Assembly (NCBI RefSeq): GCF_009467825.1
Contig: NZ_WIOK01000005.1
Coordinates: forward strand, 124,001 to 188,000
Source of the DNA: Cyclobacterium xiamenense
GTDB taxonomy: Bacteria > Bacteroidota > Bacteroidia > Cytophagales > Cyclobacteriaceae
DNA length: 64,000 nt
Reading direction: 5' to 3'
The notes beneath the pieces were generated by a model. That model was not told the DNA's origin. It did not search any database and saw only the letters and a program-made list of their open reading frames with translations. The translations under genes were made by a program, and so were the position numbers. Below are positions 1 to 50,450 of this stretch, one piece after another. How positions within the stretch are numbered: position 1 is the first letter of the stretch; every line of letters starts with the position of its first letter.

Positions 1-1122
1 TCAGGTTGGGTAAGCCGGGTGGATTTCGATAACCGACTGCTGCACTTTCAGAAAGGAGAGGAGCTGCGTTACGGTACATTGATTCTGGCTACCGGATCCA
101 AACCCAATAAATTTGGCTGGCCGGGTCAGGACCTCGAGGGCGTGCAGGGCTTGTATAGCTATCAGGACCTGCTGTCCATGGAAAAACACACGCCCTCTAT
201 AACCCGAGCGGTGATCGTGGGAGGGGGACTGATCGGCGTGGAGATGGCAGAAATGTTTAGCTCCAGAAAGATACCCGTGACGTTTCTGGTTCGGGAAAAG
301 CGCTTTTGGGACAACATACTTCCGGATGAAGAAGCAGAATTGGTGGGGCGGCACATTCGTGAGCACGGCGTTGACCTGCGAATGGAGACCGAATTGACCG
401 CTATTCTGGATGACGGTGCCGGTAAGGTAAAGGCCGTGGAAACCAGCTCCGGTGAGCAGATCCCGTGTGAATTCGTGGGCTTGACAGCAGGTGTGAGTCC
501 CAATATAGCCATTTTCACCGATTCGGAACTGGCAACCAATCGGGGCATTTTGGTCGACGAGCGGTTTCGGACCAACCTGCCGGATGTCTACGCCATCGGT
601 GATTGCGCGGAATTTAAAACCCCACCCGGGCCTGACCGGAAAAACATCGAACAGGTATGGTACACTGGGCGAATGCATGGAGAAACCCTGGCGCATAACC
701 TGACAAGTAAAAATCCGGTTTCGTATAAGCCCGGGATATGGTTCAATTCGGCAAAGTTTTTTGACATTGAGTACCAGACCTACGGGCACGTACCGGCCAG
801 GCGCCGGGATGGAGAATGGTCCTTTTATTGGGAGGATGCCTCGGGTAAGATAGCCTTACGGTTGCTTTTTAGCAAGGCAGATCAACTCTTAGGGGTCAAT
901 GCATTTGGCTGGCGCATGCGGCATGCCTTTTTTGATCAGGCGATTCGGAAGGGATGGCCGGCAGACAAGGTTGTGTCTCGCCTGGATCGGGCCAATTTTA
1001 ATCCCGAGTTTTACCGGGATTTGCAAACAGAATTTATCCAGGCTTACAATCGGGAAACAGGAAAATCACTACCACTCCCGAAAAGGTCACTTATTCAACG
1101 GTTAATTGGTACAAGGGCATGA
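1..1122 (+). CDS. NAD(P)/FAD-dependent oxidoreductase, 5' end outside window
   Basis: The frame is open from base 1, so the 373 codons seen are the C-terminal part of a longer protein; the GTG at 19 is only the first possible start inside the window. The sequence shows a class I pyridine nucleotide-disulfide oxidoreductase layout: a first-domain motif LATGSKP, a second Rossmann fold VGGGLIGVEMAE for NAD(P)H, and the FAD-contacting motif YAIGDCAEF. No CxxxxC redox disulfide is visible in this part, which fits NADH dehydrogenase-like or ferredoxin reductase-like members better than thioredoxin reductase. The stop overlaps the start of the next gene by four bases (ATGA), indicating translational coupling with a membrane polyferredoxin. 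Together they could move electrons from NAD(P)H into a membrane Fe-S chain; the acceptor is unknown. Confidence 0.88.
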   Translation, partial: SGWVSRVDFDNRLLHFQKGEELRYGTLILATGSKPNKFGWPGQDLEGVQGLYSYQDLLSMEKHTPSITRAVIVGGGLIGVEMAEMFSSRKIPVTFLVREKRFWDNILPDEEAELVGRHIREHGVDLRMETELTAILDDGAGKVKAVETSSGEQIPCEFVGLTAGVSPNIAIFTDSELATNRGILVDERFRTNLPDVYAIGDCAEFKTPPGPDRKNIEQVWYTGRMHGETLAHNLTSKNPVSYKPGIWFNSAKFFDIEYQTYGHVPARRRDGEWSFYWEDASGKIALRLLFSKADQLLGVNAFGWRMRHAFFDQAIRKGWPADKVVSRLDRANFNPEFYRDLQTEFIQAYNRETGKSLPLPKRSLIQRLIGTRA

Positions 1123-2663: not shown

Positions 2664-2665
2664 TC

Positions 2666-34525: not shown

Positions 34526-35518
34526 ATGGAAACCTACCAATTGCCCCATTCCGATCTAGAAATTTCACGCTTGATTTTTGGCTGTTGGGCCATCGTTGGC
34601 GGCTTCAACTGGGGACCGCAGGACGAGCGGGATTCTCTGGCGGCAATCAAAACCGCCTTTGATCAGGGCATTACCACCTTCGATACAGCAGAAGCCTACG
34701 GGGCAGGCGCCTCCGAGAATCTGCTCGCACGGGCGCTGGGGGAGAAGCGGAAGGAAATTATCATCGCGTCAAAAGCCGGCCCAGCCGATTTTGCACCAGA
34801 AAACCTTAGGAAAGCCTGCGAACGGGGATTGAAAAATCTGAAAACCGATTACATTGATTTGTACCAGCTCCACTGGCCTAACCCGGAGATCCCCTTGGCG
34901 GACACGCTGGGAGCGCTTCAAGAACTCCGGGATGCAGGAAAAATCCGCGCCTACGGGGTGTCCAACTTCGGCAATCAAAGCCTGGATACCTGCAAGGAAT
35001 CCGGATTCAACATCAGCAGCAACCAAATGGCCTACAACCTCCTTTTTCGGGCCATTGAGTATTCGATACTTCCCCAATGCATCGCCGATGAGGTACCGAT
35101 TCTCTGTTATTCCCCGATCATGCAGGGATTGCTGACCGGCAAATTCACTTCTGAAATGGAAGTTCCGGATGACCGGGCGCGAACCCGGCATTTCACAAAG
35201 GAACGTTCGCAATCCCGGCATCAGGAGGATGGTTGCGAAGCGTTGACCTTCCAAACCATTACGAAGATCAAGGAGCTTTCCAAAGAGGCGGAGGTGTCGA
35301 TGGGGAACATCAGTTTGGCCTGGTTACTGTACCAGCAAGGCGTGGCGGCAGCCATCGTTGGTGGCAGAAATGCGGCACAGGTCAGGAAAAATGCAGCGAG
35401 CGCGCAGGTAACGCTTAGCCCCGCTCTACTAAACGCACTGGACGAGGCTACCCGTCCGCTCAAGGAAGCCCTGGGACCCAACGCGGATTTATGGCAGACG
35501 GACAGTAGAGTGATTTGA
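34526..35518 (+). CDS. Aldo/keto reductase
   Basis: A 330-residue TIM-barrel oxidoreductase. The tetrad is visible: Asp and Tyr in FDTAEAYGAG, Lys in IIIASKAG and His in YQLHWPNP. The C-terminus NADPH site has VAAAIVGGRNAAQVRKN. It reduces aldehydes or ketones of sugars, or works in reverse. It ends with PNADLWQTDSRVI, and the last 55 bases are repeated with 8 mismatches at 39376-39430 next to a helicase fragment, so a second, now deleted, paralogue once existed nearby. It could belong to the acid-sugar module. Confidence 0.9.
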   Translation: METYQLPHSDLEISRLIFGCWAIVGGFNWGPQDERDSLAAIKTAFDQGITTFDTAEAYGAGASENLLARALGEKRKEIIIASKAGPADFAPENLRKACERGLKNLKTDYIDLYQLHWPNPEIPLADTLGALQELRDAGKIRAYGVSNFGNQSLDTCKESGFNISSNQMAYNLLFRAIEYSILPQCIADEVPILCYSPIMQGLLTGKFTSEMEVPDDRARTRHFTKERSQSRHQEDGCEALTFQTITKIKELSKEAEVSMGNISLAWLLYQQGVAAAIVGGRNAAQVRKNAASAQVTLSPALLNALDEATRPLKEALGPNADLWQTDSRVI

Positions 35519-35690: not shown

Positions 35691-36089
35691 ATGTTTGAAT
35701 TGGAGAAAAACGAAATCAAATTTCTTTATAACGGTAAAAAGTTGGAAGACAGGGAAGCCTATGCGTATGCTTTGACGCTACATAAGCATGTAATCAATGA
35801 ATTGGATGTCTCAAAAAATGATTTGACCCCAACCCAGATTTTAGAGTTGGCCAAAAAACTTAACAAACGGATAATCGATCTCTTCGACAAGAAATCTGAG
35901 CATTTCAAAGCAAAGATTCAAGGAAAAGATATGGATGAAACCGATCTGTTGACGGTATTGATTAAGGAGAAATCGACTTTGAAAACCCCTATTTTGATTT
36001 CAGCGAATGGGGCATCGGTTTTAGAATATCCAAGGGATACCATTAAGGTAGACATGGTATTCAATGAAATAAATGGAAAAGATTCCTGA
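35691..36089 (+). CDS. ArsC/Spx-like thioredoxin-fold protein lacking cysteine
   Basis: The 132-residue product resembles the C-terminal two thirds of ArsC/Spx-type proteins: LTPTQILELAKKLNKRIIDLFDKKS, ETDLLTVLIKEKSTLKTPILIS and a following short strand-turn-strand. Arsenate reductases need an N-terminal cysteine, but the whole sequence contains no cysteine, so redox chemistry of that type is excluded. It may be a regulator-like or stress protein. The coding sequence is clearly more A/T-rich than the AKR gene before it. Assignment to the fold is tentative. Confidence 0.55.
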   Translation: MFELEKNEIKFLYNGKKLEDREAYAYALTLHKHVINELDVSKNDLTPTQILELAKKLNKRIIDLFDKKSEHFKAKIQGKDMDETDLLTVLIKEKSTLKTPILISANGASVLEYPRDTIKVDMVFNEINGKDS

Positions 36090-36259: not shown

Positions 36260-37696
36260 ATGAAAGCCCAAATTATCAGTTGTTTAGTAGCTTTATTTTT
36301 GAATTTGTCCTCTCCTGAGGAGGCAAAAGGGCAGACTGTTGGAGGAAAACGTACGCCACCAAATATCGTACTCATCCTTGCCGACGATCTTGGCTGGATG
36401 GATGTGGGGTTTAATGGGGCCGAATTTTACGAAACGCCCAATATCGACCAACTCGCTTCCGAGGGAATGGTTTTCACCCGATTTTACCCTTCGGCTGCTA
36501 ATTGTGCCCCTACGCGGGCGAGTTTGTTGACCGGTATGTACTCGCCACGTCATCAGGTGTATGTTCCGCAGGGTTTGTCCAGGGGGGGCGATGTTTCGAA
36601 GATGCGGTTCAAAGTGCCCACTCAGGGCCAAAACTCCACGTTCAATACAATCCCGGTGAGCATCAATACGGTTTCACCGGAATTTGAATCACTGGCTGAA
36701 ATGCTTAAAAAGGCGAACTATGTATCCGCCCGGCTTGGAAAATGGCATATTGGGGACGATAATCAGGGTTTCGACGTGTTATCCGCAGCGGGTGAAATTG
36801 GGGAAATCACCAATTATTGCGGAAACGAAAAGCGCTACTACAACGATGATCATGTGGCAGAAAGGCTGACCGATGCGGCGCTCCATTTTATTGAAGAAAA
36901 TAAAGAACATCCGTTTTTTCTTTATCTCAGTCATTGGGAGGTTCACACCCCACTCGTAGCAAGACAGGACCGGATAACCTACTACAGAAACAAGCTCAAA
37001 GGCGGGTCAGCCAAAAAGTACGATCCGGTATATGCAGCAGAGGTGGAGCAGATAGACATAAGTGTAGGCAGGGTTCTGAACAGATTAAAAGAGTTGAATC
37101 TGGAAGAAAACACCGTTGTGATCGTCACCTCGGATAATGGGGGGCTTTCATCGGTTACGGACAATGCTCCCTTACGGGCGGGGAAAGGCACTTTTTACGA
37201 AGGGGGAATCCGGGTACCGTTTTGTATTAAATGGCCGGGTGTAACCCAAGCCGGTTCGAAATCCGACATTCCCGTAACGGGTGTTGATTTTATGCCCACG
37301 TTTGCAGAAATCGCCTCGGCGGAGTTGCCGCAAAACCAGCCGGTGGACGGTGATTCCTTTGTACCAATTCTTAAAGGAGAGCCATTCGACAGGGATCGTT
37401 CACTTTTTTTCCATTTTCCGCTTTACCTGGGAGGTAGTGTGGAGGTATTGCCAGCTTTCGATGGAACCAAAAATTTCTGGCGTGCGGTACCCTCTTCGGT
37501 AATCATGGCTGGCGATTGGAAATTGATTTATTATTACGAATACGATCGCTATGAACTGTTTAATCTGAGAACGGATAGTTCAGAGCAAGACGACCTTTCT
37601 GGCAGCGAAACCGGAATGGCACTAAAACTGTTGGAAAAACTTAGAAATTGGGTAGCAGCCGTACATGCTCCGGTGCCCAGTGTTTTAAATAAGTAA
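36260..37696 (+). CDS. Secreted sulfatase, Cys-type (first)
   Basis: The 478-residue protein has a signal peptide (cleavage near KGQT) and the sulfatase fold. Metal ligands are in ILADDLGWMDVG, and the formylglycine site is NCAPTRASLLTG with Cys82 in C-x-P-x-R. Later come KWHIGD, VTSDNGG and APLRAGKGTFYEGGIRVP. It should remove sulfate esters from a glycan in the periplasm or at the surface after conversion of Cys82 to formylglycine by a maturase not encoded here. It is followed by a ThuA gene after 75 bases. Confidence 0.93.
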   Translation: MKAQIISCLVALFLNLSSPEEAKGQTVGGKRTPPNIVLILADDLGWMDVGFNGAEFYETPNIDQLASEGMVFTRFYPSAANCAPTRASLLTGMYSPRHQVYVPQGLSRGGDVSKMRFKVPTQGQNSTFNTIPVSINTVSPEFESLAEMLKKANYVSARLGKWHIGDDNQGFDVLSAAGEIGEITNYCGNEKRYYNDDHVAERLTDAALHFIEENKEHPFFLYLSHWEVHTPLVARQDRITYYRNKLKGGSAKKYDPVYAAEVEQIDISVGRVLNRLKELNLEENTVVIVTSDNGGLSSVTDNAPLRAGKGTFYEGGIRVPFCIKWPGVTQAGSKSDIPVTGVDFMPTFAEIASAELPQNQPVDGDSFVPILKGEPFDRDRSLFFHFPLYLGGSVEVLPAFDGTKNFWRAVPSSVIMAGDWKLIYYYEYDRYELFNLRTDSSEQDDLSGSETGMALKLLEKLRNWVAAVHAPVPSVLNK

Positions 37697-37771: not shown

Positions 37772-38809
37772 ATGAAATTCCTGTCTTATCTTGTACTGTG
37801 CTTGCTTTCAATAAATTTTAGTGTCCATGCCGTTGCTAAAAGCTTCTGGATGGAGAATGGGAGCTCAACCATACGTCATCATGAATTGAGAGAAAAAGCC
37901 CCTTTAAAAGCGTTGATCGTTGACGGTCAGAATAACCATGAGGTTTGGCCAAAAGCTACGCTAATGATGAAGCAGTACCTGGAAGAAACGGGGCTTTTTC
38001 GGGTAGATATTTACAGAACAAGGTTTACCTGGAGAGCAGAAAGGGAAAGGAAGTACTTGCCATTGGCGGGACTGAGCGCAACCACAGAGCTGGAAACCCC
38101 GCAGCATGATCCGGATTTCACCCCCGAATTCAAAAATTATGACCTGGTGATTTCCAACTTTGGCTGGAAGGCCGCAGATTGGCCGGAGGAAACACAAAAA
38201 GCCTTCGAAGAATACATGTCCTCCGGCGGAGGCTTTGTCTCCTTTCACGCTGCAAACAATTCTTTTCCAGACTGGCTGGAATACAATAAAATGATTGGCC
38301 TGGGAGGCTGGGGTGACCGTACTGAAAAAGATGGACCTTATGTGTATTATACGAATGAGGGCGAGCTGGTACGAGATCCTTCACCGGGGAAAGGCGGTGC
38401 CCATGGACCTAGCCATATTTTTCCCATCACCATTCGTGAGAAAGATCATCCCATCACCAGGGGAATGCCGAAAGTATGGCTAACCACCAAGGATGAATGC
38501 TATTCTCAATTGCGTGGACCGGCCGAGAACATGACGGTACTGGCTACCGGTAAGGATGTTTCAGGCAAAGCGCCTACTGACCGGCACGAACCCATGCTGA
38601 TGGTGTTGGACTACGGCAAAGGGCGGGTATTTCATACCACGCTGGGGCACGATGATTTTTCAATCGAAAGCGTTGGTTTTATCACGTCATTTTTAAGAGG
38701 AGCGGAATGGGCGGCAACAGGAAAGGTTACTCAACCCATACCAGATGATTTTCCTACGGCAGAAAATTCCACCAGCAGGAAATTTACGTTGAAATTTGAT
38801 AATCAATAA
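37772..38809 (+). CDS. Secreted ThuA-domain protein
   Basis: A 345-residue exported protein (signal about 1-22). The ThuA domain is a class I glutamine amidotransferase-like fold: LKALIVDGQNNHEVWP, DLVISNFGWKAADWPE, GGGFVSFHAANNSFPDW, HPITRGMP, and the end GRVFHTTLGHDDFS. ThuA was named from trehalose utilisation in rhizobia; secreted copies in PULs are proposed to handle keto-sugars but lack a proven reaction. The neighbouring sulfatase implies a sulfated glycan. The downstream 140 bases lead directly into a broken helicase copy. Confidence 0.87.
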   Translation: MKFLSYLVLCLLSINFSVHAVAKSFWMENGSSTIRHHELREKAPLKALIVDGQNNHEVWPKATLMMKQYLEETGLFRVDIYRTRFTWRAERERKYLPLAGLSATTELETPQHDPDFTPEFKNYDLVISNFGWKAADWPEETQKAFEEYMSSGGGFVSFHAANNSFPDWLEYNKMIGLGGWGDRTEKDGPYVYYTNEGELVRDPSPGKGGAHGPSHIFPITIREKDHPITRGMPKVWLTTKDECYSQLRGPAENMTVLATGKDVSGKAPTDRHEPMLMVLDYGKGRVFHTTLGHDDFSIESVGFITSFLRGAEWAATGKVTQPIPDDFPTAENSTSRKFTLKFDNQ

Positions 38810-38948
38810 AATCAACTAGAAGCCTGAGGTTTTCGTATTCTCTTCTTTAAAGGAATCAGCCTGCCGATTGCCGTTTGGCTTATCATACATTCGGAACCTG
38901 TTGGCTTTCGATGTATTCGGTAATACACCGATACTAAAGAATACTACC

Positions 38949-38956
38949 TACCTTTG
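38949..38956 (+). promoter_or_regulatory. Bacteroidota -7-type box before the helicase fragment
   Basis: TACCTTTG matches the TAnnTTTG -7 consensus. The same box occurs before the intact gene at 46599-46606. It includes the TTG at 38954, so that TTG is probably promoter, with translation from the ATG at 38972. No clear -33 element is visible. Confidence 0.35.
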
Positions 38957-39427
38957 GCCAAAAATGTATCCATGGGCTTTACCGATCTCGGTCTTTCAAC
39001 ACCACTACAGGAAGCAATAAGCAAGGCAAAATACGAAAATCCCTTTCCCGTTCAGATCCAGGCGATACCTGCGATCTTGAAAAAGAAGGACCTTTGGGCC
39101 CTGGCGCCCACCGGATCTGGAAAAACGGCTGCCTATGTATTGCCGATCCTGGAAATGTTTCAGGGGAAAACTGCTGTAAAAAGTAGGGCTGTCGCTGTGC
39201 TGGTGCTGGTCCCTACCCGGGAATTGGCCATTCAGGTTGATCAAACGGTAAAAACCTTTACGAACGGCTTGCCAAGGAAGGTAAAATCCATGGCGGTGTA
39301 TGGTGGGGTGTCCATCAATCCCCAAATGATACACCTGTACGGAACCGACATCCTGATCGGGACCCCCGGTCGCTTAAGGAAACCATGGGACCCAACCCCG
39401 ATCCATGGCAGACGGACAGTCGGGTGA
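38954..39427 (+). pseudogene. Truncated DEAD-box helicase gene copy
   Basis: This is a 5' fragment of the gene at 46622-47755, shifted by exactly 7,650 bases. From 38950 to 39049 (100 bases) and from 39113 to 39375 (263 bases) the two copies are identical, while 39050-39112 has 12 mismatches. It keeps motifs Q, I (APTGSGKT), Ia (PTRELA) and Ib (GTPGRL), then breaks after CGCTT. Beyond the break the frame reads through aldo/keto reductase sequence in the wrong frame and stops at 39427. Without DEAD, SAT and the whole second RecA domain it cannot be an active helicase. Confidence 0.93.
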
Positions 39428-39432
39428 TTTAA
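39373..39432 (+). pseudogene. 3' remnant of a second aldo/keto reductase gene
   Basis: The codons from CTT at 39373 to TAA at 39430-39432 read LKETMGPNPDPWQTDSRVI in the proper AKR frame, against LKEALGPNADLWQTDSRVI at the end of the gene at 34526-35518. The stop is at the same codon. Over 39376-39430 there are 8 mismatches in 55 bases, so this is a diverged paralogue, not a recent copy. The junction with the helicase fragment sits on a shared CGCT. Confidence 0.88.
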
Positions 39433-39688
39433 GGACCTATATTTCATAGTTTTTTTTCGAAAATAGTAATTTCCACTATGTTTTTATTGTTGTATGTCAT
39501 CCTTTTTTAAAATAATCATTGGTATATTAACGTATATTGGTGAGTATTTTTATTATATTTTTTTATATTAACTACAATCAAAATTTTATTCTGATACAAA
39601 ATTTTTTAACAAAATAAAAAATTATGTGGGGTCGTTTTTATTGTTTTTTTCTCTTTATATTAGAAAGCCAACCTAAAATCTAAACCCA

Positions 39689-40315
39689 ATGAAACCCACA
39701 TCCAAAGAAGCTTCCGGGCGGGAACTTCCGTTTTCCTCGTTTCCCCATAGCGAACCCATTCATCACTTTCATACCAAAACCGACGAGGAAATCTGGATGG
39801 CGTTGAATGCAGGCAGCGAGTTGGCTTTTAATTATTTATATAGAATCCATATTGGTCTCATGTTCCGTTACGGTTGCCAAATTTCCACAGACAAGGGGCT
39901 CGTGAAGGATTGCATTCAAAATGTCTTCATACAGCTGCGCAAAAAAAGGGGGGATCTAACCAATGTGAAAAATTGCAAGGCGTACCTGTTTACCTGCCTG
40001 AAAAACGAAATACGAAAGAAAATCCGGGAATCCAATAGAGTGTATGTAGGTGTGAAGGAAGAGGAGGGGTTTCCGATTTCACTTTCACACGAGGCCATTT
40101 TAATACAGAAGGAGCAAGAATGCGAAAAAGTGCAGCAAGTTCAGGAAGCATTGAATCAGCTTACTACCCGGCAAAGGCAAGCCCTCCTATTATTGTACGT
40201 GGAGGGAATGAGTTATCAGGAAATTGCACAGGCTATGGACTTTAACGAAGTGAAATCTGCCAGAAAGTTGGTTTACCGTGCCTTATCCTCGATAAGAGTC
40301 CTTTTAAAAAAATAG
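39689..40315 (+). CDS. ECF RNA polymerase sigma factor, FecI/SigW-like (first)
   Basis: The 208-residue product has sigma-70 region 2 (GLVKDCIQNVFIQLRKKRG) and region 4 with the helix-turn-helix TTRQRQALLLLYVEGMSYQEI. It is the Bacteroidota type found next to FecR anti-sigma factors, and the FecR gene follows after 31 bases. It should direct transcription of the downstream susCD genes when the transporter senses its glycan. About 260 bases upstream are extremely A/T-rich and probably hold its promoter. Confidence 0.93.
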   Translation: MKPTSKEASGRELPFSSFPHSEPIHHFHTKTDEEIWMALNAGSELAFNYLYRIHIGLMFRYGCQISTDKGLVKDCIQNVFIQLRKKRGDLTNVKNCKAYLFTCLKNEIRKKIRESNRVYVGVKEEEGFPISLSHEAILIQKEQECEKVQQVQEALNQLTTRQRQALLLLYVEGMSYQEIAQAMDFNEVKSARKLVYRALSSIRVLLKK

Positions 40316-40346: not shown

Positions 40347-41381
40347 ATGAAATACAGCGAATACGATATTGTAGATTTCCTAATGGATGAGTTCTTCATT
40401 CAATGGATCAAAAACCCCAATCAAAATAACTGTCATTTTTGGGAGAAATGGATTCGGGAAAATCCAGATAAGCGAGCTATAGTGCTAAAAGCCGCTTCGC
40501 TTATTCGATCGGTGAAATACCGGGAAGAACCCGAAATCGGCAACGCCGCTTACGTAGAGATTTTTGAAAACAGCATCAAGTCCGATAACGACAACTGTGA
40601 GGACACTTCGGCAAAGGAAAAGTCCCTGCCGTTTTTTAAGTTCAAGAACATGGTCGCGTTGATTTTATTTGGTTTTTGTGCGTCCATGATATACGTGCAG
40701 ATATTTTATGAGGCAGGTACGGTTGCGAGCAGCGAAATAAACGAAGAGTGGATTACCAGGGCGGTACCGAAGGGAAAGAAATCCATTGTTACACTGTCAG
40801 ATGGCACCCGTGTGTTTCTGAATGCCGAAAGTGAACTGACCTATCCGAAAAACCATTCCGGCGAACAGCGCTGGGCGAAATTAAAGGGTGAAGCATTTTT
40901 CGAAGTAAAAAAGGATCCAAAGCGATTTAGGGTGCTAACCAAAGGCTCCGAAATCGACGTTCTTGGCACCTCTTTCAATGTGAAGGAAGAAGGACAGGGT
41001 CTTGAAATTGCCTTGGTTAGCGGTAAGGTGCGCGTGAGAAACAGCCAGGGAAACCAGGTGGAATTAGCGCCGCTAGAGATGGTCAAGGTAGACGCAAGTG
41101 GCATATCTGAAAAAAGGGGATTTGACCTTTTAGCAATTACCGGGTGGAAAGACAGAATATTGGTTTTTCAGTCTGATAATTTAGAGCAGGTGGTTGGTAA
41201 ACTTGAAAAATGGTACGGTATCGACCTGGTTTTTTCTGGAAAGGTATCGGATCACTGGAATTACTCCGGTACGTATCATAACGAAAACCTGGAAAATGTA
41301 CTGAAAGGTATTTCGCTTACTTCGGGTCTTAGGTATCGGATAGAAGAAAATCGTGTCTTGCTTTACAACGACAACCAATAA
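40347..41381 (+). CDS. FecR-type anti-sigma factor (first)
   Basis: A 344-residue single-pass protein: cytoplasmic N-terminal helices, one membrane segment near residues 100-119 (NMVALILFGFCASMIYVQIF), and a periplasmic FecR domain (VPKGKKSIVTLSDGTRVFLN). The C-terminal DUF4974 region contains LEQVVGKLEKWYGIDLVF and ENLENVLKGISLTSGLRY, resembling STN domains. It would hold the sigma factor inactive and receive a signal from the STN domain of the next SusC protein. It is followed by a perfect stem-loop. Confidence 0.93.
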   Translation: MKYSEYDIVDFLMDEFFIQWIKNPNQNNCHFWEKWIRENPDKRAIVLKAASLIRSVKYREEPEIGNAAYVEIFENSIKSDNDNCEDTSAKEKSLPFFKFKNMVALILFGFCASMIYVQIFYEAGTVASSEINEEWITRAVPKGKKSIVTLSDGTRVFLNAESELTYPKNHSGEQRWAKLKGEAFFEVKKDPKRFRVLTKGSEIDVLGTSFNVKEEGQGLEIALVSGKVRVRNSQGNQVELAPLEMVKVDASGISEKRGFDLLAITGWKDRILVFQSDNLEQVVGKLEKWYGIDLVFSGKVSDHWNYSGTYHNENLENVLKGISLTSGLRYRIEENRVLLYNDNQ

Positions 41382-41415: not shown

Positions 41416-41452
41416 GGACAGTCCCCTTTCTGGGGAGATGCGGGGACTGTCC
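41416..41452 (+). promoter_or_regulatory. Perfect 11-bp stem-loop before the second susC
   Basis: GGACAGTCCCC (41416-41426) and GGGGACTGTCC (41442-41452) are exact inverted copies around a 15-base loop. It lies 57 bases before the susC start, after the FecR gene. A related GGGGAC/GTCCCC stem lies at the same place in the other sigma/anti-sigma locus. It may be an attenuator or processing site; no T-run follows. Confidence 0.7.
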
Positions 41453-41509
41453 AAACTGCCTTTTTCAGGCAACCATTCAAGCGATCTTACACTTAAATCA
41501 ATCAATATT

Positions 41510-44500
41510 ATGAAAAATAATATACAGAGGCAACTCATGACCTTTTCAAAACGAATGTTCCATGGTTTTCTGATTCAAATGATAGGCTGTTCGCTGTTAT
41601 TGGCGAATACAGGAAACGCACAACGGAAAACAATAGATAAAGTACGAATAGCGGTTTCTGGAGACACGCAGTCATTGATTACGTTTTTCAAAACAGTAGA
41701 AGCAGCAACCCCTTTTCGGTTTACCTATAATAGTGATTTTGTGGACCTGAGCCAGCAGGTGGCGTTGACGAAGAAAAGACCGACCATCTATGATGCATTG
41801 GGGGAAATCTCCCGGCAAACCGACCTAAAATTTGTACAGGTAAATGAAAACATCCATGTGAAAATGGAATCCAATCGAGAAGCCGCTGCGGTTTCCATTG
41901 AGGATCAACCGGTGCTCGACGTATCTGGTCGTGTGGTTGACAGTGAGGGAGAGCCGTTGCCAGGAGTTACGATCACGGTGTTGGGTACGAACGTGGGTAC
42001 CGTTACCGACCTAAATGGAAATTATTCCCTGTCGGTGAAGGAGGGAGCCGCCTTGGTTTTTTCCTTTATTGGATTTGAGTCTCAAACCATTCAGGTTTCC
42101 AACCAGTCCATTTTGGACGTTACCTTAAATGAGGACGTTGCCTCGCTGGAAGAGGTGATTGTTGTAGGGTACGGAACTCAAAAGAAGGCTAATATGACAG
42201 GGGCGGTTGCCACGGTTGGAGGAGATGAGATTATCAAGCGCCCCTTAAACAATGTTGCCGGGTTATTGCAGGGAAAAGTGGCAGGATTGCAGGTGTCTTC
42301 TCATTCCGGAAAGCCAGGTAGTGAAAATAATTCACTAAGAATCAGAGGCCTGGGCACATTTAGTGCCGCCGGAAGCGAGCCGCTTGTGCTGATAAACGGG
42401 ATAGCCGGAGACATGACCAACCTAGATCCCAATGATGTGGAATCCGTATCTGTTTTAAAAGATGCTGCTTCCAGTGCCATTTATGGTGCTCGGGCTGCCA
42501 ATGGGGTAATTCTGATTACCACCAAGAGAGGGCAGGAAGGATCGCTTTCCATTGACATTCATAGCAATGTGCAGGTTCACCAACCCACCCGTTTACCGGA
42601 ACTGTTGAGCAATTCGGCCGATTACATGATGTACTGGAATCAGGGAAGGGCTAGGGCCGGAGGTCAGGCACCTTATTTCAGTCAGGAAGAAATTGATGCC
42701 TACCGAAACAATCCAAACGACCCGATCAATTATCCCAATTTTGATTGGATTGATCATTCATTCAGAACCGCTGTTGCCAATATGCAATCGATTAGGGTAA
42801 GCGGTGGTAATGAAAAGACTTCGGTAGGTTTGTCTCTAGGATATTTTGACCAACCTGGCTTAACTAGCCTATATGAATTCAAAAAATACAATGCCAGGCT
42901 TACCGTTGACTCTAAAATTAATGATTGGATTTCGGTAGGAGGAGATATTCAGCTGGTCAACAAAGATATTCAACGAAGTAACTGGGATAACGGTAACGTG
43001 GATTATCAAATTCTGGCCATATATGGCGCTGGCCCCAATTATACGCCTACCATGACCCTGCCCGACGGTTCTACCGGATACGTAGCAAGGTACAGTTCAA
43101 ATATTGGGGAGTGGACCGTAAGGAATCCGGATGCACAAGATGCTAGTGGCATTCAAACGGACATCAATTATAACGTATTGCCTCAGTTTTATGTGGAGAT
43201 CAAACCTATGGAACATTTGACTTGGTACACGAAAGGGGCTGTTTCTTACGATAACCGTGCCCTTAAAAATCATGAAACACCTGTGGATAATTATTTTTTC
43301 GAGGACGGTTCTTATGCGCATAATAACTCCACCTGGCAATTGGGGGTAAGGGAAACCTGGAATACCGGTTTGTGGACCACCTTTTATTCCACCCTTAATT
43401 ACCGGCGGCTTTTCAATGAAACGCATAATATTAATATATTGGCCGGATACAATCAGGAATACAGCTCCAATCGTCAGCTAAGGGGATCAAGAGTGCATTT
43501 TCCAACCAATGTTCTGAAAGAATTGGATGCCGGAGCGCCTTTGGACCAAACCACCGGAGGATATTTGCAGGAATGGGCTATCATGTCGTTTTTTGGTCGT
43601 GCCATGTACGATTATAACGAGAAATACCTGGTGGAAGCCAATATTCGCTACGATGGAACTTCCAGGATTTCTCCCGATAACCGCTGGGGAGTGTTTCCTT
43701 CCATGTCAGCAGGATGGAGGATTTCACAGGAACCGTTTTTGCAGCAGAACGCCTGGATAGATAATCTCAAAATCAGGGGATCTTGGGGACAGCTGGGTAA
43801 TCAAAATGTAGGGCTTTATCCTTTTCAGGAAGTTTTGACCACCACCTCTTACCCTTTCAATACCGCCCATCCCGGTGCTTTTGTCAACCGATTGGTGGAT
43901 CCCAATTTGAGATGGGAAACCACCACCATGACTGACATAGGAATCGATCTTTCCATGAAAGAGGGATTAATTAATGTTACCTTCGATTGGTTTGACAAGG
44001 TTACGGATGACATTCTATACAATGTACCGATACCGGCGAGTGTAGGACTTTCTCCGCCCACAGTAAATTATGGCAAAATGAGAAATACTGGCATCGAGCT
44101 GGAACTGAGCTCCATGAAGCAATTCGGTGATTTTGGCTATAATATTAGTGCCAATTTCTCTACTTTCAGAAATGAAGTATTGAGGATATTGTCACCTGTT
44201 TATGGAAGTAGGTATACGATTCAGGAGGGGCTTCCTTTTAACTCTCATTTTATGGTGGAATGGGATGGTATTTTCCAGAATGAAGAAGAAATTGCGAACA
44301 GTCCCCAGCATCAGTTTAACCCCAAGCCAGGTGACTTGAAGTTTGTGGATCAAAATGACGATGGAGTAATCAACGCCGACGATCGCGTTGTTATGGATGG
44401 AGCCTATCCCCGGTTTCATTACGGAAGTACAATCAATCTTTCCTGGAAAAATTTTGATTTAAATGCCTTTTTCCAAGGTTTGGAAGGCTATAAGCAGAGT

Positions 44501-44893
44501 ACTCAGGGCTTATCATGGGGTTTGGTACCTTATATTCAGGGATCTCCTCCTCCTGTAGATTTCATTGAAAACATGTGGACTGGTGAGGGTTCTACCAATG
44601 CCCATCCCGCCATGTATATCTCCGGTTATGCTCCGGTGACCGGTACCCGGAATTCTTATTGGTTGATGGATGCCTCTTACTTTAGGTTAAAAAACCTTGC
44701 TATTGGTTATAACCTTCCTTCCCGGATAAGTGAGCAAATCGGGTTAAAGTTTGCCAGGCTTTACATGTCAGGCGATAATTTGTTTACCATTACCGATTGG
44801 CCGGGATCTGATCCTGAAAGGGCCAATACCCACTGGTTTCAGGCCTATCCTCAGATCACCAGTTACACTTTAGGCCTAAAAGTCACGCTTTAA
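41510..44893 (+). CDS. SusC-type TonB-dependent transporter with STN domain (second)
   Basis: From ATG 41510 the protein has 1127 residues. Order: signal peptide (about 1-37, ending GNAQ), STN domain (about 45-115: FFKTVEAATPFRFTYN, LGEISRQTDLKFVQV), carboxypeptidase-regulatory-like domain (SGRVVDSEGEPLPGVTITV), EEVIVVGYGTQKK at the plug start, the plug (VLKDAASSAIYGARAANGV) and a beta barrel ending YTLGLKVTL. The STN domain signals to the FecR protein encoded upstream. An earlier in-frame start at 41438 lies inside the leader stem-loop and is rejected. Its codons look more A/T-rich than those of the first susC. Confidence 0.95.
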   Translation: MKNNIQRQLMTFSKRMFHGFLIQMIGCSLLLANTGNAQRKTIDKVRIAVSGDTQSLITFFKTVEAATPFRFTYNSDFVDLSQQVALTKKRPTIYDALGEISRQTDLKFVQVNENIHVKMESNREAAAVSIEDQPVLDVSGRVVDSEGEPLPGVTITVLGTNVGTVTDLNGNYSLSVKEGAALVFSFIGFESQTIQVSNQSILDVTLNEDVASLEEVIVVGYGTQKKANMTGAVATVGGDEIIKRPLNNVAGLLQGKVAGLQVSSHSGKPGSENNSLRIRGLGTFSAAGSEPLVLINGIAGDMTNLDPNDVESVSVLKDAASSAIYGARAANGVILITTKRGQEGSLSIDIHSNVQVHQPTRLPELLSNSADYMMYWNQGRARAGGQAPYFSQEEIDAYRNNPNDPINYPNFDWIDHSFRTAVANMQSIRVSGGNEKTSVGLSLGYFDQPGLTSLYEFKKYNARLTVDSKINDWISVGGDIQLVNKDIQRSNWDNGNVDYQILAIYGAGPNYTPTMTLPDGSTGYVARYSSNIGEWTVRNPDAQDASGIQTDINYNVLPQFYVEIKPMEHLTWYTKGAVSYDNRALKNHETPVDNYFFEDGSYAHNNSTWQLGVRETWNTGLWTTFYSTLNYRRLFNETHNINILAGYNQEYSSNRQLRGSRVHFPTNVLKELDAGAPLDQTTGGYLQEWAIMSFFGRAMYDYNEKYLVEANIRYDGTSRISPDNRWGVFPSMSAGWRISQEPFLQQNAWIDNLKIRGSWGQLGNQNVGLYPFQEVLTTTSYPFNTAHPGAFVNRLVDPNLRWETTTMTDIGIDLSMKEGLINVTFDWFDKVTDDILYNVPIPASVGLSPPTVNYGKMRNTGIELELSSMKQFGDFGYNISANFSTFRNEVLRILSPVYGSRYTIQEGLPFNSHFMVEWDGIFQNEEEIANSPQHQFNPKPGDLKFVDQNDDGVINADDRVVMDGAYPRFHYGSTINLSWKNFDLNAFFQGLEGYKQSTQGLSWGLVPYIQGSPPPVDFIENMWTGEGSTNAHPAMYISGYAPVTGTRNSYWLMDASYFRLKNLAIGYNLPSRISEQIGLKFARLYMSGDNLFTITDWPGSDPERANTHWFQAYPQITSYTLGLKVTL

Positions 44894-44906: not shown

Positions 44907-46439
44907 ATGAAATACGTCAAAAATTTATATGTCAACAACTTCCTTATTGGAGTTGTCGTGTTGTTTGCGGTATCATGTACGGATTTTTTAGAAAGGAATC
45001 CGACTACACAAATTTCCGGCCCCACTTTCTGGGATTCACAGAAGGATGCCGATTTGGCTTTAGCGGGGGTATATTCCAGGCTCAATAGCAATACCTTTAA
45101 TCATGAAGGTGTTTATGATCTGGCCATTATGGCAGGCGATGCGAATGAAGGAGGTCAAAGTCTGGGAGCGGCTTCAACCGGAACTTTTGCTACGGGTATA
45201 ATGGAAGCGGTTTCCGGCGGGCTCTTAGCTAATATTTACAATCAATGTTACCAAGGTATCGCTACCTGTAATTATTTTTTAGAGAACATCGAAAGAGTGA
45301 ATATGCCAATGGAAAGGATCACCCGGTACGAAGGAGAAGTTCTCTTTTTACGTGCTTTCTTCTATTTTACCCTCGCGGATTTTTATGGAGGTGTACCCCT
45401 CTATACTTCTACCGTGTCGGCTGAAGAAGCAAAAGTGCCAAAAAGCACCAGGGACCAGGTCATTGACCAGGTTTTGGCTGATTTGGATGTGGCCATTTCC
45501 AGTCTTCCCAATACAGATTACAGTTCAAGCGGACATGCGGTAAAAGGTTCTGCCCTGGCCTTAAAAAGTAGGGTACATTTATATGAGTCCGATTGGGCGG
45601 CTGCGGCTCAAGCTGCATCCCAGGTAATGACTGAAGGCCAGTTTAGCTTGTACCAAGACCAATGGCAGGACCTGTTCCTGGCGAAAGGTCAAAGCAACAA
45701 TCCTGAAATCATGTTTTCAACAAAATACCTGAACCCGGATAATTTCAGCAACCAAGATATCAGGATCCTATGGCATGGGAGATGGAATCCCAGAACAGAA
45801 TTACGGGATGCTTTTGAAACTGTCGATGGCCTGCCTATCTCGGAATCTCCTTTATATGACCCTGATAACTGGAAACTGAACAGGGATCCCCGATTGGGAA
45901 AAACCATGAGGGCATTTGAAGACCCGGCTGTCAAAGAATCAGGTGAAGTAGTGGAATTTGCCTATAACGGTGTTTCCATGACCGGACTAGTGCCTGCCAA
46001 GGGGGGCAATGTGGAGACCCTGCCAATCGATTATTCCACCAAAAGTGAGCAGGATTGGGTATTGATCCGATATGCAGAAGTGTTGCTTAATTTTGCGGAA
46101 GCTACCAACGAACTGAACGGCCCCACCCAAGCCGTCTATGATGCGGTGAACGCTGTCAGAACTCGTGAAAGCGTGGGTATGCCTACGCTCCCAGATGGCC
46201 TGACCCAGGATGAAATGAGGGACAGAATCCGAAATGAAAGAAGGGTGGAATTTGCCTTTGAAGGCATGCGGTACCGGGACATCAAAAGGTGGCGGCTCGC
46301 CGAAGAATACATTCCCACTTTGGTGGAACCCGGTTCTGGTGTCAGAAGGGCATTTGATCCGGCTAAACATTACCTTTTTCCATTTCCCCAGTCCGAAATC
46401 GATATCAATCCCGCATTGGAACAAAACCCGGGCTATTGA
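44907..46439 (+). CDS. SusD-type glycan-binding lipoprotein (second)
   Basis: A 510-residue SusD protein with an SPII signal (LFAVSCTDFLERNP, Cys near 23). Hallmarks are QKDADLALAGVYSRL, RYEGEVLFLRAFFYFTLADFYG with GGVPLYTS, WVLIRYAEVLLNFAEATNEL, IRNERRVEFAFEGMRYRDIKRW and the C-terminal NPGY. It partners the SusC protein encoded 13 bases upstream. A strong terminator follows the stop by 20 bases, so susCD form the end of this transcription unit. Confidence 0.94.
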   Translation: MKYVKNLYVNNFLIGVVVLFAVSCTDFLERNPTTQISGPTFWDSQKDADLALAGVYSRLNSNTFNHEGVYDLAIMAGDANEGGQSLGAASTGTFATGIMEAVSGGLLANIYNQCYQGIATCNYFLENIERVNMPMERITRYEGEVLFLRAFFYFTLADFYGGVPLYTSTVSAEEAKVPKSTRDQVIDQVLADLDVAISSLPNTDYSSSGHAVKGSALALKSRVHLYESDWAAAAQAASQVMTEGQFSLYQDQWQDLFLAKGQSNNPEIMFSTKYLNPDNFSNQDIRILWHGRWNPRTELRDAFETVDGLPISESPLYDPDNWKLNRDPRLGKTMRAFEDPAVKESGEVVEFAYNGVSMTGLVPAKGGNVETLPIDYSTKSEQDWVLIRYAEVLLNFAEATNELNGPTQAVYDAVNAVRTRESVGMPTLPDGLTQDEMRDRIRNERRVEFAFEGMRYRDIKRWRLAEEYIPTLVEPGSGVRRAFDPAKHYLFPFPQSEIDINPALEQNPGY

Positions 46440-46458
46440 TTGAATCTGAAAATTGAGC

Positions 46459-46493
46459 AAAAAACATGAAAACCTTAGGCTTTCATGTTTTTT
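46459..46493. terminator. Bidirectional-looking intrinsic terminator after susD
   Basis: AAAAAACATGAAA pairs perfectly with TTTCATGTTTTTT across a nine-base loop ACCTTAGGC. The T-run on the plus strand and the A-run in front make it work on either strand. It lies 20 bases after the susD stop. A diverged counterpart of the block from here to the helicase gene is seen from about 38820. Confidence 0.85.
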
Positions 46494-46621
46494 GCTTTAA
46501 AGGAAATCGGAGTCACAATTGCCGTTTGGTTGATTTCCATTCCGAACCAGTCGCCATTCCAACTATCCGGCCAAACACCGATCCTAATAAATAATACTTA
46601 CCTTTGGCCAAAAATGTATCC

Positions 46622-47755
46622 ATGGGCTTTACCGATCTCGGTCTTTCAACACCACTACAGGAAGCAATAAGCAAGGCAAAATACGAAAATCCCTTTCCCA
46701 TTCAGATCCAGGCGATACCTGCCATTCTAAAAAAGAGAGACATTTGGGGCCTGGCTCCAACAGGATCTGGAAAAACGGCTGCCTATGTATTGCCGATCCT
46801 GGAAATGTTTCAGGGGAAAACTGCTGTAAAAAGTAGGGCTGTCGCTGTGCTGGTGCTGGTCCCTACCCGGGAATTGGCCATTCAGGTTGATCAAACGGTA
46901 AAAACCTTTACGAACGGCTTGCCAAGGAAGGTAAAATCCATGGCGGTGTATGGTGGGGTGTCCATCAATCCCCAAATGATACACCTGTACGGAACCGACA
47001 TCCTGATCGGGACCCCCGGTCGCTTGCTGGATTTGCTTTCAAAAAAGGCCGTGGACTTGTCCGCATTGGAAATACTGGTTTTGGACGAGGCCGACAAAAT
47101 GCTGAACCTGGGCTTTAAGGAAGAAGTGGATGAAATCTTGTCCGGATTGCCCAAAAAACGGCAGAACATCCTTTTTTCTGCGACGACGGAGGAGTCAGTA
47201 GCCAGCTTATCAGCCAACCTGCTTTACCAACCGGTTCGGATAGAAATCGGGCAAGATACCGTTTCCCCTGCTCAAATCAAGCAATCGGCCTATTTGGTCA
47301 CGCCCGAAAACAAGGGGCCTTTATTGCGGTTTCTAATCAGCGAGGGAAACTGGACCCAGGTGTTGGTTTTTGCCAGTTCCAAACGGGCGGCAGATAACCT
47401 CGCCGCCAAATTAAAAAAACACGGAATACAGGCCCAGTCTTTTCATGGGGATAAAAGTCAGGCGGCCCGGACGGAATCGCTTCGGAATTTTAAACAGGGA
47501 AACCTACGGGTTTTGGTGGCCACCGACCTCGCCTCCCGGGGTATCGATATCCAGTTTTTACCCCATGTGGTTAATTACGAATTGCCTCGTTCCCCAAAGG
47601 ATTACATTCACCGCATCGGTCGGACAGGCAGGGCGGGTTCAGAGGGAGAGGCCATTTCCCTGATATCGGAGGAAGACGCGCATCATTTCAAGGTCATTCA
47701 GAAAAAAATGAAACGAATGGTCGAACTGATTGATTCAAAAAACCTGGGTTTTTGA
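46622..47755 (+). CDS. DEAD-box RNA helicase (intact copy)
   Basis: The 377-residue protein has both RecA domains. The first has the Q motif (PFPIQIQAIPAI), I APTGSGKT, Ia PTRELA, Ib GTPGRL, II DEAD in LVLDEADKML and III FSATT. The second has motif V TDLASRGIDI and VI HRIGRTGRAG. It unwinds short RNA duplexes in ribosome assembly or mRNA turnover. The ATG at 46622 is preferred over TTG 46604, because that TTG belongs to a TACCTTTG promoter-like box. The N-terminal 400 bases are duplicated at 38950-39375 with a mosaic of identical and diverged tracts. Confidence 0.94.
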   Translation: MGFTDLGLSTPLQEAISKAKYENPFPIQIQAIPAILKKRDIWGLAPTGSGKTAAYVLPILEMFQGKTAVKSRAVAVLVLVPTRELAIQVDQTVKTFTNGLPRKVKSMAVYGGVSINPQMIHLYGTDILIGTPGRLLDLLSKKAVDLSALEILVLDEADKMLNLGFKEEVDEILSGLPKKRQNILFSATTEESVASLSANLLYQPVRIEIGQDTVSPAQIKQSAYLVTPENKGPLLRFLISEGNWTQVLVFASSKRAADNLAAKLKKHGIQAQSFHGDKSQAARTESLRNFKQGNLRVLVATDLASRGIDIQFLPHVVNYELPRSPKDYIHRIGRTGRAGSEGEAISLISEEDAHHFKVIQKKMKRMVELIDSKNLGF

Positions 47756-47939: not shown

Positions 47940-49259
47940 TCAGGAATAAAGTGGGGTTCTTGTTTCCCACTTTCCTTTGGTAAAATCAGGAAAATCCACC
48001 GGTCTGCTTTTGTCAGCTACGGAGGTTCCGGTAAGCGGAATAATGGCAGCACTGGTTACCGAATCGTACACGTCCCAGTCCGGCTGTTTATTTTCCTGCA
48101 AGGCAAGTACCAGTCGGTGCCAGTTGATTGGCGTTTGGGTCATGCCTCCACTGCCATGTCCGCGGATGGCTCCTCCTTTGCGTTCGGGAGGAGCGTAGTT
48201 TTTCACAATTTCATGTGCATATTCTTCCAGATACGGCGCTGCGGGTTCCCATTGATGTTCCCTGGGACTTCTACCTTCAATATAAATTCGCTGGGCATCC
48301 CTTTCCTTTAAATAAATTCCCTTTGAGCCCTGAAGTCGGAAACTTTCCCGGGGGTGGGGGGTATGCGTGTCGTGGTTAAGGGTGACCATTTTCCCCTTTA
48401 CGGTTCGGATAAGTGAGGCATTGTAATCCCCTAGCGCCATCTCTTTCGTCGCATACGGATGTTTTTCTCCGTACTGGGCTTTGGCATATTCATTGAGCAT
48501 TCCCGATTTCGTACTCATGGAGACCAGGTAGTCAAACCGGTCCCCATGGTTGATATCCAGCACCGGCATCATGTTTCTCATGGGATGGTCGGGGTAGAGA
48601 TTGCCGTTTTTATCGATGGCGGGCTGCAATCTCCACGGTTCTTCTTCGGGATTAAACTTCACCATCCTCAGGTCATGTATGTAGCCACTTTCTACATGGA
48701 GGATATCCCCTAATAATCCTTTTCGCACCATATTCAACATGGTTAGGTCTCCAAAACCACCCAATACGATACTGGCCCACTTACCGGTGCTTTCAAAGGT
48801 TTCTACCAATTCCCATGCTTCTTCCAGTGTCTGGGCAATGGGCACTTCGCAAGCCGCATGTTTTCCATTTCTCATGGCCGCCAGACATACCGGAGCATGG
48901 GTGTCCCAGGGGGTGGCGCAAATCACGGCGTCCAGCTCTTCCTCCTCGCATAACCGAATAAAATCTGTTGGTCCCTTATCGTAAAGCCTGGGGCTCGGTT
49001 GACCGGATTCCTCAATCCACCGTTTGGCCTGGTACAGGTTTTTGGGATCGATGTCACAAATGGCAGGGATTTCTACCCCGGTAATTCCAAGTGCAGTGTC
49101 CAGGTGGTAAGAGCCTCTACCCCCAATACCCACAAAACCCAGTCTCAGATTCCGTTTGAGACCCAAAGCCATCGATTGATTGGATAGTAAGCCTGTTGTA
49201 ATACCTCCCAGTGCTAGCGTTGAAAGCTTTAGGAAATTTCTGCGGTCAAGATTATTCAT
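47940..49259 (-). CDS. GH109-like Gfo/Idh/MocA-fold protein with Tat signal
   Basis: A 439-residue protein with a twin-arginine signal (LDRRNFLKLSTLALGG). A Rossmann fold follows with LRLGFVGIGGRGSYH and AICDIDP. The segment NLYPDHPMRNMMPVLDINHGD near 220-240 aligns with the GH109 active-site stretch YPTHGLGP, keeping Tyr222 and His225 but with Asp at the Thr position. GH109 enzymes cleave N-acetylgalactosaminides through NAD-dependent oxidation and elimination. The clear Tat motif implies export with bound cofactor. It is the second gene of a minus-strand pair behind the amidohydrolase. The substrate is uncertain because the motif differs. Confidence 0.82.
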   Translation of the reverse strand: MNNLDRRNFLKLSTLALGGITTGLLSNQSMALGLKRNLRLGFVGIGGRGSYHLDTALGITGVEIPAICDIDPKNLYQAKRWIEESGQPSPRLYDKGPTDFIRLCEEEELDAVICATPWDTHAPVCLAAMRNGKHAACEVPIAQTLEEAWELVETFESTGKWASIVLGGFGDLTMLNMVRKGLLGDILHVESGYIHDLRMVKFNPEEEPWRLQPAIDKNGNLYPDHPMRNMMPVLDINHGDRFDYLVSMSTKSGMLNEYAKAQYGEKHPYATKEMALGDYNASLIRTVKGKMVTLNHDTHTPHPRESFRLQGSKGIYLKERDAQRIYIEGRSPREHQWEPAAPYLEEYAHEIVKNYAPPERKGGAIRGHGSGGMTQTPINWHRLVLALQENKQPDWDVYDSVTSAAIIPLTGTSVADKSRPVDFPDFTKGKWETRTPLYS

Positions 49260-49295: not shown

Positions 49296-50450
49296 CTACT
49301 GGAGGATCCCCGGATACCATTTTTCGGCATTGTACCGGTAAATTTTATCTACCACCGTCTTGGGCAATTTCAATCCCTTGAAGGTACCGGTGACTTTTGG
49401 TACCTGCATTTCCTGGTCCCCGGTAAAAAATTGCCAATGTCGTAACCAAACCTGATGGGCATGTTCCGAAATCTCTTCCGGTTCCGTTAATCCCTTCGCC
49501 TGTATGTCCGATGCACCGGCGCGCAAATCCGTTCCATAGAGGAGTCGGTCCTGGTAGGTAATGATGAAGTCGCGCACCCCTTCCCAATCGGTGACAGCCT
49601 GGTGTTGCAGGTGAGAGATGCGTTCGGCCATATCCACCGCCATATTGGGAAAGGAATCCAGCCTCTTTGCCAGTTCATACACGTCGTATTCCAGGCTTCC
49701 CAAATGGGCTCCAACAAATCTCAGATCGGGATTATTGGCCAGCAGTTGATCCCGGGCAGCAATCTGTTCCTCATAGGAGGGAAGATCGGGAAAATTATAC
49801 ATGTGGTACTTGGGGTTTTCCCGAAAATAATCCCGGTCGCCTTGTACCGTCATTTCCTCCAGTGGCAGCCAGGTATTTTTTGGTTCGCCCAGGTGGCCCA
49901 ACAGGGTAATTTTTTTTTCCACCAACAGCTGCAGGATGGAATCAAAGGCAGGATCGGTAATCATTACCAACTCGCCTTTTTCATTTTTCAGCTCCATGCC
50001 TATATTTTTCCATACCTTTACTGCTATGGCCCCCTTGGCAATTGATTTTTCCAAATAGTCCAGGGTTTTCCTTTCCCAATCGTTGTTGGTAAATCCCTCC
50101 AGTGAAAAGGTCGTGCCATAGGTGACGATATCCGGATATTGGCCGATGAGTTTCAACGAAAAATTTTCTTGCGCTTCCGGCGTGAGTTTTGGAGAGGTAT
50201 ACACACTTACGTTCAGCAGTCTAAACTTATCCCGGGCTGCCTGACGTATAAAGACGGTATCGAAATCCGTTCTTAGGTGTACATGGGCATCGATTTTTTC
50301 TATTCGGTCAAAATCTTCCAGGGAATAGTAGCTTTCTTCCATGGTTTCAGGCGTTTCATGATTGCTTTTCGGTGATTGACAGCAGAAGGCGAGGGTGAAA
50401 AGACAGAAAGAAAAAATAAATGGTTTGCCTATTTTGGTCATTGTTTTCAT
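49296..50450 (-). CDS. Amidohydrolase-family lipoprotein
   Basis: The 384-residue product has a lipoprotein signal (FTLAFCCQSP). The TIM-barrel hydrolase of the amidohydrolase_2 type shows HVHLRTDFD with the two metal histidines, LLGHLGEP, FVGAHLGSLEYD and LLYGTDLRAG with the catalytic aspartate. Members hydrolyse or decarboxylate small molecules, sometimes lactones. It is first in a two-gene minus-strand unit with the GH109-like gene (36 bases between), suggesting an envelope role in sugar or lactone handling. Confidence 0.85.
   Translation of the reverse strand: MKTMTKIGKPFIFSFCLFTLAFCCQSPKSNHETPETMEESYYSLEDFDRIEKIDAHVHLRTDFDTVFIRQAARDKFRLLNVSVYTSPKLTPEAQENFSLKLIGQYPDIVTYGTTFSLEGFTNNDWERKTLDYLEKSIAKGAIAVKVWKNIGMELKNEKGELVMITDPAFDSILQLLVEKKITLLGHLGEPKNTWLPLEEMTVQGDRDYFRENPKYHMYNFPDLPSYEEQIAARDQLLANNPDLRFVGAHLGSLEYDVYELAKRLDSFPNMAVDMAERISHLQHQAVTDWEGVRDFIITYQDRLLYGTDLRAGASDIQAKGLTEPEEISEHAHQVWLRHWQFFTGDQEMQVPKVTGTFKGLKLPKTVVDKIYRYNAEKWYPGILQ

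Follow-up and report, generated by a model that had tools for sequence, protein, structure and literature searches.

What does it mean when the first part of a helicase gene runs straight into the last codons of an aldo/keto reductase gene? This question is raised by a locus in the window, the stretch of 64,000 nucleotides of Cyclobacterium xiamenense DNA that we analysed. Window bases 38954–39375 are the 5′ part of a DEAD-box helicase gene (FRAG), and an intact copy of the gene (HEL) follows downstream (Table 1). FRAG aligns without gaps to 46604–47025; 12 of its 422 bases differ, and the match ends at 39375. The fragment is without the remaining DEAD domain and the C-terminal helicase domain, with no match to PF00271. 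Beyond the break lies the end of a second aldo/keto reductase (AKR) gene. Bases 39365–39430 are 83% identical over 66 bases to 35451–35516 of the intact AKR gene; chance similarity is ruled out by an E value of 1.7e-12 in a search of the whole genome. Read in the AKR frame, 39373–39432 translates as LKETMGPNPDPWQTDSRVI*. An open reading frame of 157 amino acids carries the helicase frame into this tail out of the AKR frame.

Table 1. Coordinates, strand and assignment of the features of the locus (window positions).
Feature	Position	Strand	Basis
Intact aldo/keto reductase (AKR), left flank gene	34526..35518	+	Pfam PF00248, E 1e-71
DUFx, small protein	35691..36089	+	no Pfam family at E 1e-5; conserved beside AKR
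Sulfatase (sulf1), version A cargo	36260..37696	+	PF00884; same place in C. roseum and C. salsum, absent there in C. jeungdonense
ThuA-domain protein, version A cargo	37772..38809	+	PF06283; 93% DNA identity to C. roseum
Intergenic igA, version-A helicase upstream region	38810..38953	+	94% to ThuA-HEL intergenic DNA of C. roseum
Helicase 5′ fragment (FRAG), codons 1-141	38954..39375	+	PF00270, to profile position 107 of 167 only
Divergent patch in FRAG	39050..39112	+	12 differences in 63 bases vs HEL
CGCT microhomology at joint	39371..39374	+	
AKR 3′ tail, last 19 codons and stop	39373..39432	+	
Sigma-70 family sigma factor (sigma1), version B cargo	39689..40315	+	PF08281; 67% aa to C. jeungdonense, same place
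FecR protein (FecR1), version B cargo	40347..41381	+	PF04773; 66% aa to C. jeungdonense
SusC-like TonB-dependent transporter, version B cargo	41438..44893	+	PF07715 plug domain; 86% aa to C. jeungdonense
SusD-like protein, version B cargo	44907..46439	+	PF07980; 78% aa to C. jeungdonense
Intergenic igB, version-B helicase upstream region	46440..46603	+	83.5% over 91 bases to post-SusD region of C. jeungdonense
Intact DEAD-box helicase (HEL)	46604..47755	+	PF00270 and PF00271; 95% DNA to C. roseum
GFO/IDH/MocA-type oxidoreductase (Oxr), right flank	47940..49259	-	PF01408, PF21252; 96% DNA to C. roseum
Amidohydrolase, right flank	49296..50450	-	PF04909; 92% DNA to C. roseum

The four bases CGCT at the joint are common to both parents, HEL and AKR. 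Taking the intact AKR gene as a stand-in for the lost copy, and judged post hoc, microhomology of at least four bases occurs at 0.47% of all distinct joints possible between HEL and AKR. A match at 8 of 11 bases, as in the wider context CCCGNNCGCT, is seen in about 0.16% of random pairs on the same terms. An earlier note on this DNA had described the break after 39375, the last 19 AKR codons and stop in their own frame with 8 mismatches in 55 bases against 35462–35516, and the shared CGCT; all of these descriptions hold. We searched 59 genomes, including the organism's own, with bases 38900–39460 and scored at most ten candidates per genome. Among these, no match in the 58 other genomes spans the joint. 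The 18 matches outside the own genome end at or before base 477 of the 561-base query, which is the joint. The fusion of a broken helicase and an AKR end is a clear but ordinary recombination scar.

The gene orders of relatives place this scar. We compared 12 genomes, the own draft assembly (97 contigs) and 11 congeners, among them C. roseum SYSU L10180 (G003), C. salsum SYSU L10167 (G006) and C. jeungdonense KCTC 23150 (G001). C. roseum has the order AKR-DUFx-sulfatase-ThuA-HEL-Oxr-amidohydrolase, which we call version A; in C. salsum a further cargo whose last gene is a sulfatase separates ThuA from HEL, and the order is otherwise the same. C. jeungdonense has version B, AKR-DUFx-sigma1-FecR1-SusC1-SusD1-phosphorylase-HEL-Oxr-amidohydrolase. 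The sigma factor is one that we take to be of the ECF type. In the window the order is AKR-DUFx-sulfatase-ThuA-[HEL fragment|AKR tail]-sigma1-FecR1-SusC1-SusD1-HEL-Oxr-amidohydrolase. FRAG thus sits after ThuA, where C. roseum has HEL, with 94% identity in the intergenic DNA, and the block 3′ of the AKR tail is the cargo that lies between AKR-DUFx and HEL in C. jeungdonense. The sigma-FecR-SusC-SusD order is found only in C. jeungdonense besides the window among the 12 genomes, and in none of the 12 do one AKR and one HEL enclose both cargoes. The similarity of FRAG to HEL, on whose upstream extent the earlier note was silent, reaches beyond the start of the gene (38820–38953, 73%), and the two upstream regions igA and igB are homologous at 73%. 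Because of these gene orders and upstream matches, the fusion falls at the end of one locus version and the start of the next. DUFx lies directly after AKR in C. jeungdonense, C. roseum, C. salsum and loci L067, L068, L070 and L071. It is missing between the AKR tail and sigma1 in the B copy and present there in C. jeungdonense, so sequence has possibly been lost near the joint.

Two further observations were made on these relatives. The carbohydrate phosphorylase (PF00343) between SusD and HEL of C. jeungdonense (L059:13700-16231) is another changed neighbour upstream of HEL. Right after ThuA in C. salsum (L058:9065-10180, minus strand), two minus-strand ORFs resemble one broken aldo/keto reductase-like gene of a different kind, and one of the two ORFs matches PF00248 weakly.

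On balance, and with little more than even confidence, we take the fusion to be the seam of two alternative locus versions that were stacked head to tail by recombination. Stacking of this kind would create the helicase/AKR joint directly. One parent would have been of version A, AKR-DUFx-sulfatase-ThuA-HEL, as in C. roseum and, with added cargo, C. salsum; the other would have been of version B, AKR-DUFx-sigma-FecR-SusC-SusD-...-HEL, as in C. jeungdonense. At 4–5 bases of microhomology, a DNA end within codon 141 of the helicase gene may have been joined to the last AKR codons of the other version. The exchange would have been closed at its other end through helicase homology, leaving one intact helicase. 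The stack would need one illegitimate joint (HEL codon 141 to the AKR tail) and one homologous exchange in HEL. It could have been reached by insertion-duplication, in which circularised or head-to-tail version-B DNA crossed over in the helicase, or by unequal crossing-over between sister chromosomes during import of version A. Gene conversion may then have made most of FRAG identical to HEL. The data show the structure, the gene orders of the relatives, the anomalous closeness of the ThuA-to-amidohydrolase part to roseum/salsum and the patchy identity; the order of these events, the intermediate, the direction of transfer and the conversion are what we infer. The outer structure would be the same after circle insertion, unequal sister crossing-over or plain tandem duplication, and so does not tell these apart.

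The earlier note had seen in the locus the fossil of a microhomology-mediated deletion between a helicase copy and a second AKR gene. Its components stand, namely a 5′ copy of the helicase, a second AKR copy and a microhomology joint; the deletion that would have fused two intact genes is only a proposal. It had proposed that a relative with the helicase and a second AKR gene, still undeleted, would support it. Each of the 11 congeners has one AKR match (E ≤ 0.001) and none has a second. No undeleted intermediate was therefore found, and the proposed deletion is not needed. The account can be recast as a stack with an intact helicase and an intact second AKR gene, from which microhomology-mediated deletion later took out most of the AKR gene together with the 3′ part of the helicase gene. 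This we regard as unlikely. The structure and the microhomology would fit it, as would the missing DUFx of the B copy. It would need two illegitimate helicase/AKR joints, one when the stack was made and another for the deletion, which is one event more. The AKR tail reads NPDPW, as expected of a decaying remnant, vs NADLW in the eight relatives whose ends were translated, which on the deletion account would mean that the second AKR gene had been decaying for some time. A later deletion at the joint, with some sequence lost near it, may still have followed the stacking.

The tail itself points to a local origin. It agrees with the own AKR at 55 of 66 bases, vs 36–49 of 66 at 20 loci of relatives (several of these are one genome from two collections), and it shares three sites with the own AKR against C. 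jeungdonense, C. roseum and C. salsum. At the 10 differences between tail and own AKR in 39371–39432, these three relatives all side with the own AKR at six and with the tail at one. Since the tail is closest to the own AKR and shares these three sites with it, the second AKR gene was likely a copy made in the own lineage, as far as the 66 bases suggest, which are little.

To see how the parts of the locus relate to those of the relatives, we compared their divergence. The background, taken from one stretch (window 1119–4138), is 77% DNA identity to each of C. jeungdonense, C. roseum and C. salsum, and AKR is close to it (80, 78 and 78%). Past AKR, identity to C. roseum is 88% in the sulfatase, 93% in ThuA, 94% in igA, 95% in HEL, 96% in Oxr and 92% in the amidohydrolase. 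It is 93–98% across ThuA-FRAG and HEL-Oxr, and 85% and lower past 50.6 kb. Synonymous divergence from C. roseum (dS, Nei-Gojobori) is 1.78 in AKR, 0.24 in DUFx, 0.46 in the sulfatase, 0.12 in ThuA, 0.19 in HEL, 0.16 in Oxr and 0.28 in the amidohydrolase. The values between C. roseum and C. salsum are 0.12–0.19 for six genes (AKR, sulfatase, ThuA, HEL, Oxr and amidohydrolase). The locus is thus much closer to C. roseum than the background is, with dS of 0.12–0.28 vs 1.78 in AKR. Because dS from C. roseum is so far below that of AKR, the part from ThuA to the amidohydrolase (ThuA, HEL, Oxr and amidohydrolase) is, judging from the sequences, one that has been exchanged between the own lineage and the roseum/salsum lineage. 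In the literature searched we found no paper naming C. roseum, which does not prove that there is none. ThuA (37772–38809) is 88% identical in DNA to G004 and 86% to G005, vs 73–74% at window 1119–4138, so this gene may travel between species.

The B block behaves otherwise. With the comparison covering genes other than DUFx, dS from C. jeungdonense is 2.0 in SusC1 and saturated in SusD1, sigma1 and FecR1; it is 1.19 in AKR, 1.04 in HEL and 1.42 in Oxr. The B block is thus diverged from C. jeungdonense at or beyond background. We had considered version B as the newcomer and dropped this, the ThuA-to-amidohydrolase part being the anomalously close one.

The identity between FRAG and HEL is patchy, on which the earlier note was also silent. 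There are no differences in 38954–39049, 12 in 39050–39112 and none in 39113–39375, which equals 46763–47025 as an exact repeat of 263 bases. Random mutation does not explain this pattern; all 12 differences fall in 63 of 422 bases, and none of 200,000 random placements was so tight. Copying from another DEAD-box paralogue of the own genome was rejected as well, FRAG and HEL being the only matches at E ≤ 0.001. Over its 22 codons the patch has a dS of 0.8 between FRAG and HEL with four amino-acid changes, and so resembles a piece of a working but diverged helicase more than the product of decay. At the 12 sites (G004, G005 and G011 left out), HEL agrees with C. roseum at seven, FRAG at two and neither at three, so that HEL leans to version A within the patch, although not significantly. 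Outside the patch, the identity of FRAG and HEL is most readily explained by conversion or by a recent source common to the two. The available text of PMC13344027 reports mosaic patches from transformation in Bacillus subtilis. For a reciprocal exchange the traces are mixed: igA and igB split into A and B, the patch leans the opposite way (seven vs two of 12), and 39113–39375 is identical in both copies.

The long exact repeat also bears on whether the joint is real. In a draft of 97 contigs, a misjoin could pass through the 263 bases common to FRAG and HEL, and the paths through this repeat could be swapped. We think such an assembly chimera very improbable. Apart from the intact AKR, nothing else in the genome matches the AKR tail, and both flanks match the gene orders of relatives. 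Swapped paths would give a clean version-A chromosome and a circle of 7,650 bases that would still carry the same HEL/AKR joint.

Several features speak against the stack of two versions. It needs further steps to account for FRAG, which would have a conversion tract (or a foreign patch), and for the B copy, which is without DUFx. Without conversion the two sides of the joint would seem to differ in age, as the AKR tail differs from the own AKR by 17% and 359 FRAG bases are identical to HEL. Version B is itself mixed. Copies elsewhere in the genus resemble its SusD, and its SusC from residue 158/160 on, more than those of C. jeungdonense do. Copies of SusC elsewhere in G003, G004, G005, G006, G008 and G011 are 90–92% identical in amino acids over the body of the protein (residues 158/160–1151) and align from residue 158 or 160 only; the SusD copies in the same six congeners are 87–88% identical, vs 86% and 78% for SusC and SusD of C. 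jeungdonense. No match to sigma1 or FecR1 was found in the stretches fetched around these SusC-SusD copies.

These copies elsewhere matter for a plain tandem duplication. In G004 and G005, SusC-SusD lies 3.2–3.4 kb before ThuA, followed by the amidohydrolase, with no HEL or Oxr between; in G011, SusC-SusD and ThuA are 6 kb apart. Because SusC-SusD is near ThuA in G004 and G005, the two cargoes have stood next to each other in some member of the genus, and a single combined cargo could have been reduced to version A in one case and to version B in another. An ancestral locus with both cargoes might then have been duplicated in tandem, with different losses from each copy. A single duplication that joined HEL codon 141 to the AKR tail would give the outer structure, and the own AKR and the tail do look like sisters. 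A combined cargo does exist within the genus, in G004, G005 and G011, although away from AKR and HEL. We nevertheless judge this course rather improbable. G004 and G005 have neither HEL nor Oxr between ThuA and the amidohydrolase, and the stretch fetched from each has no match to sigma1 or FecR1. The window shares its ThuA-HEL adjacency with C. roseum and its SusD-igB adjacency with C. jeungdonense, two different species, and how far the sequence has diverged from relatives is very different in the ThuA-HEL part and in the B block. The arrangement that the ancestor would have had, one AKR and one HEL enclosing the two cargoes, was seen in 0 of the 12 genomes. We also observed that at L168 and L169 (G004:C12:558001-570000 and G005:C34:53001-66000) the order is SusC-SusD, about 3 kb, ThuA, amidohydrolase on the opposite strand, and sigma2.

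In insertion-duplication of the Campbell type, linear DNA that has circularised enters by a single crossover, and the block that it brings in comes to lie between two copies of the target gene, one truncated and one intact. FRAG and HEL are such a pair here, direct repeats 7,650 bases apart with the truncated copy first. The locus differs from the known system in that the circle is inferred, that the block stems from within the genus and that the two copies of the repeat are for the most part identical. For E. coli, the available text of PMC3240628 describes how linear DNA is circularised by ligation and integrated by a single crossover. The same text describes homology-facilitated illegitimate recombination, in which insertion is coupled with deletion. 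Its illegitimate joint with a few bases of microhomology has a counterpart in CGCT. For a deletion in the recipient the traces are mixed: the helicase sequence here is duplicated, not lost, and DUFx is missing from the B copy. Merodiploids of Streptococcus pneumoniae carry tandem duplications that arise by unequal crossing-over triggered by imported DNA, according to the available text of PMC3784515. Those duplications are about 100–900 kb and formed on a repeat, whereas here about 8 kb is involved and the new joint has 4–5 bases of identity. Native polysaccharide utilization loci (PULs) are exchanged between Bacteroidota, as the available text of PMC13188876 reports. The likeness is that sigma/FecR/SusC/SusD and sulfatase cargo varies between species; the difference is that this genome retains two cargoes next to each other, and they share the helicase gene as right border. 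A tRNA-anchored island was rejected, as no tRNA or tmRNA is present within the window. The joint is best explained as the seam of stacked versions, a known kind of recombination outcome, and the processes themselves are known.

The stacked arrangement shows how two alternative sugar-use cargoes can be retained next to each other in one bacterium, and which scar results. Both likely parental arrangements are seen in named related species, and the case tempers the natural first reading of such a fusion as the fossil of a deletion.

C. roseum has a second HEL and amidohydrolase (L057:3726-6140; G003:C57:119726-122140), about 34 kb after the first and behind other sulfatase-bearing cargo. This 5.5-kb cargo-HEL block is 92% identical to the cargo-HEL block at the main locus of C. 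salsum and would seem to be another case of stacking in the four-species group. Immediately upstream of HEL lies ThuA in C. roseum, SusD in the window, the phosphorylase in C. jeungdonense, and a sulfatase both in C. salsum and before the second HEL of C. roseum. A second copy of the helicase is present in two of the 12 genomes, here as a fragment. Because the upstream neighbour of HEL varies and second helicase copies occur in these two genomes, one may speculate, although we think it unlikely, that in this genus the helicase gene serves again and again as the border where PUL cargoes are swapped and stacked, and that the 7.65-kb block is excisable. Recombination at the 263-base repeat would then excise the sigma-FecR-SusC-SusD block and restore one intact helicase, so that the cargo stack would be reversible and free of transposons.

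A near-perfect inverted repeat lies 3′ of SusD at window 46456–46496 and is perhaps an operon terminator. The same inverted repeat is also found 3′ of SusD in C. jeungdonense and in the SusC-SusD copies of other congeners.
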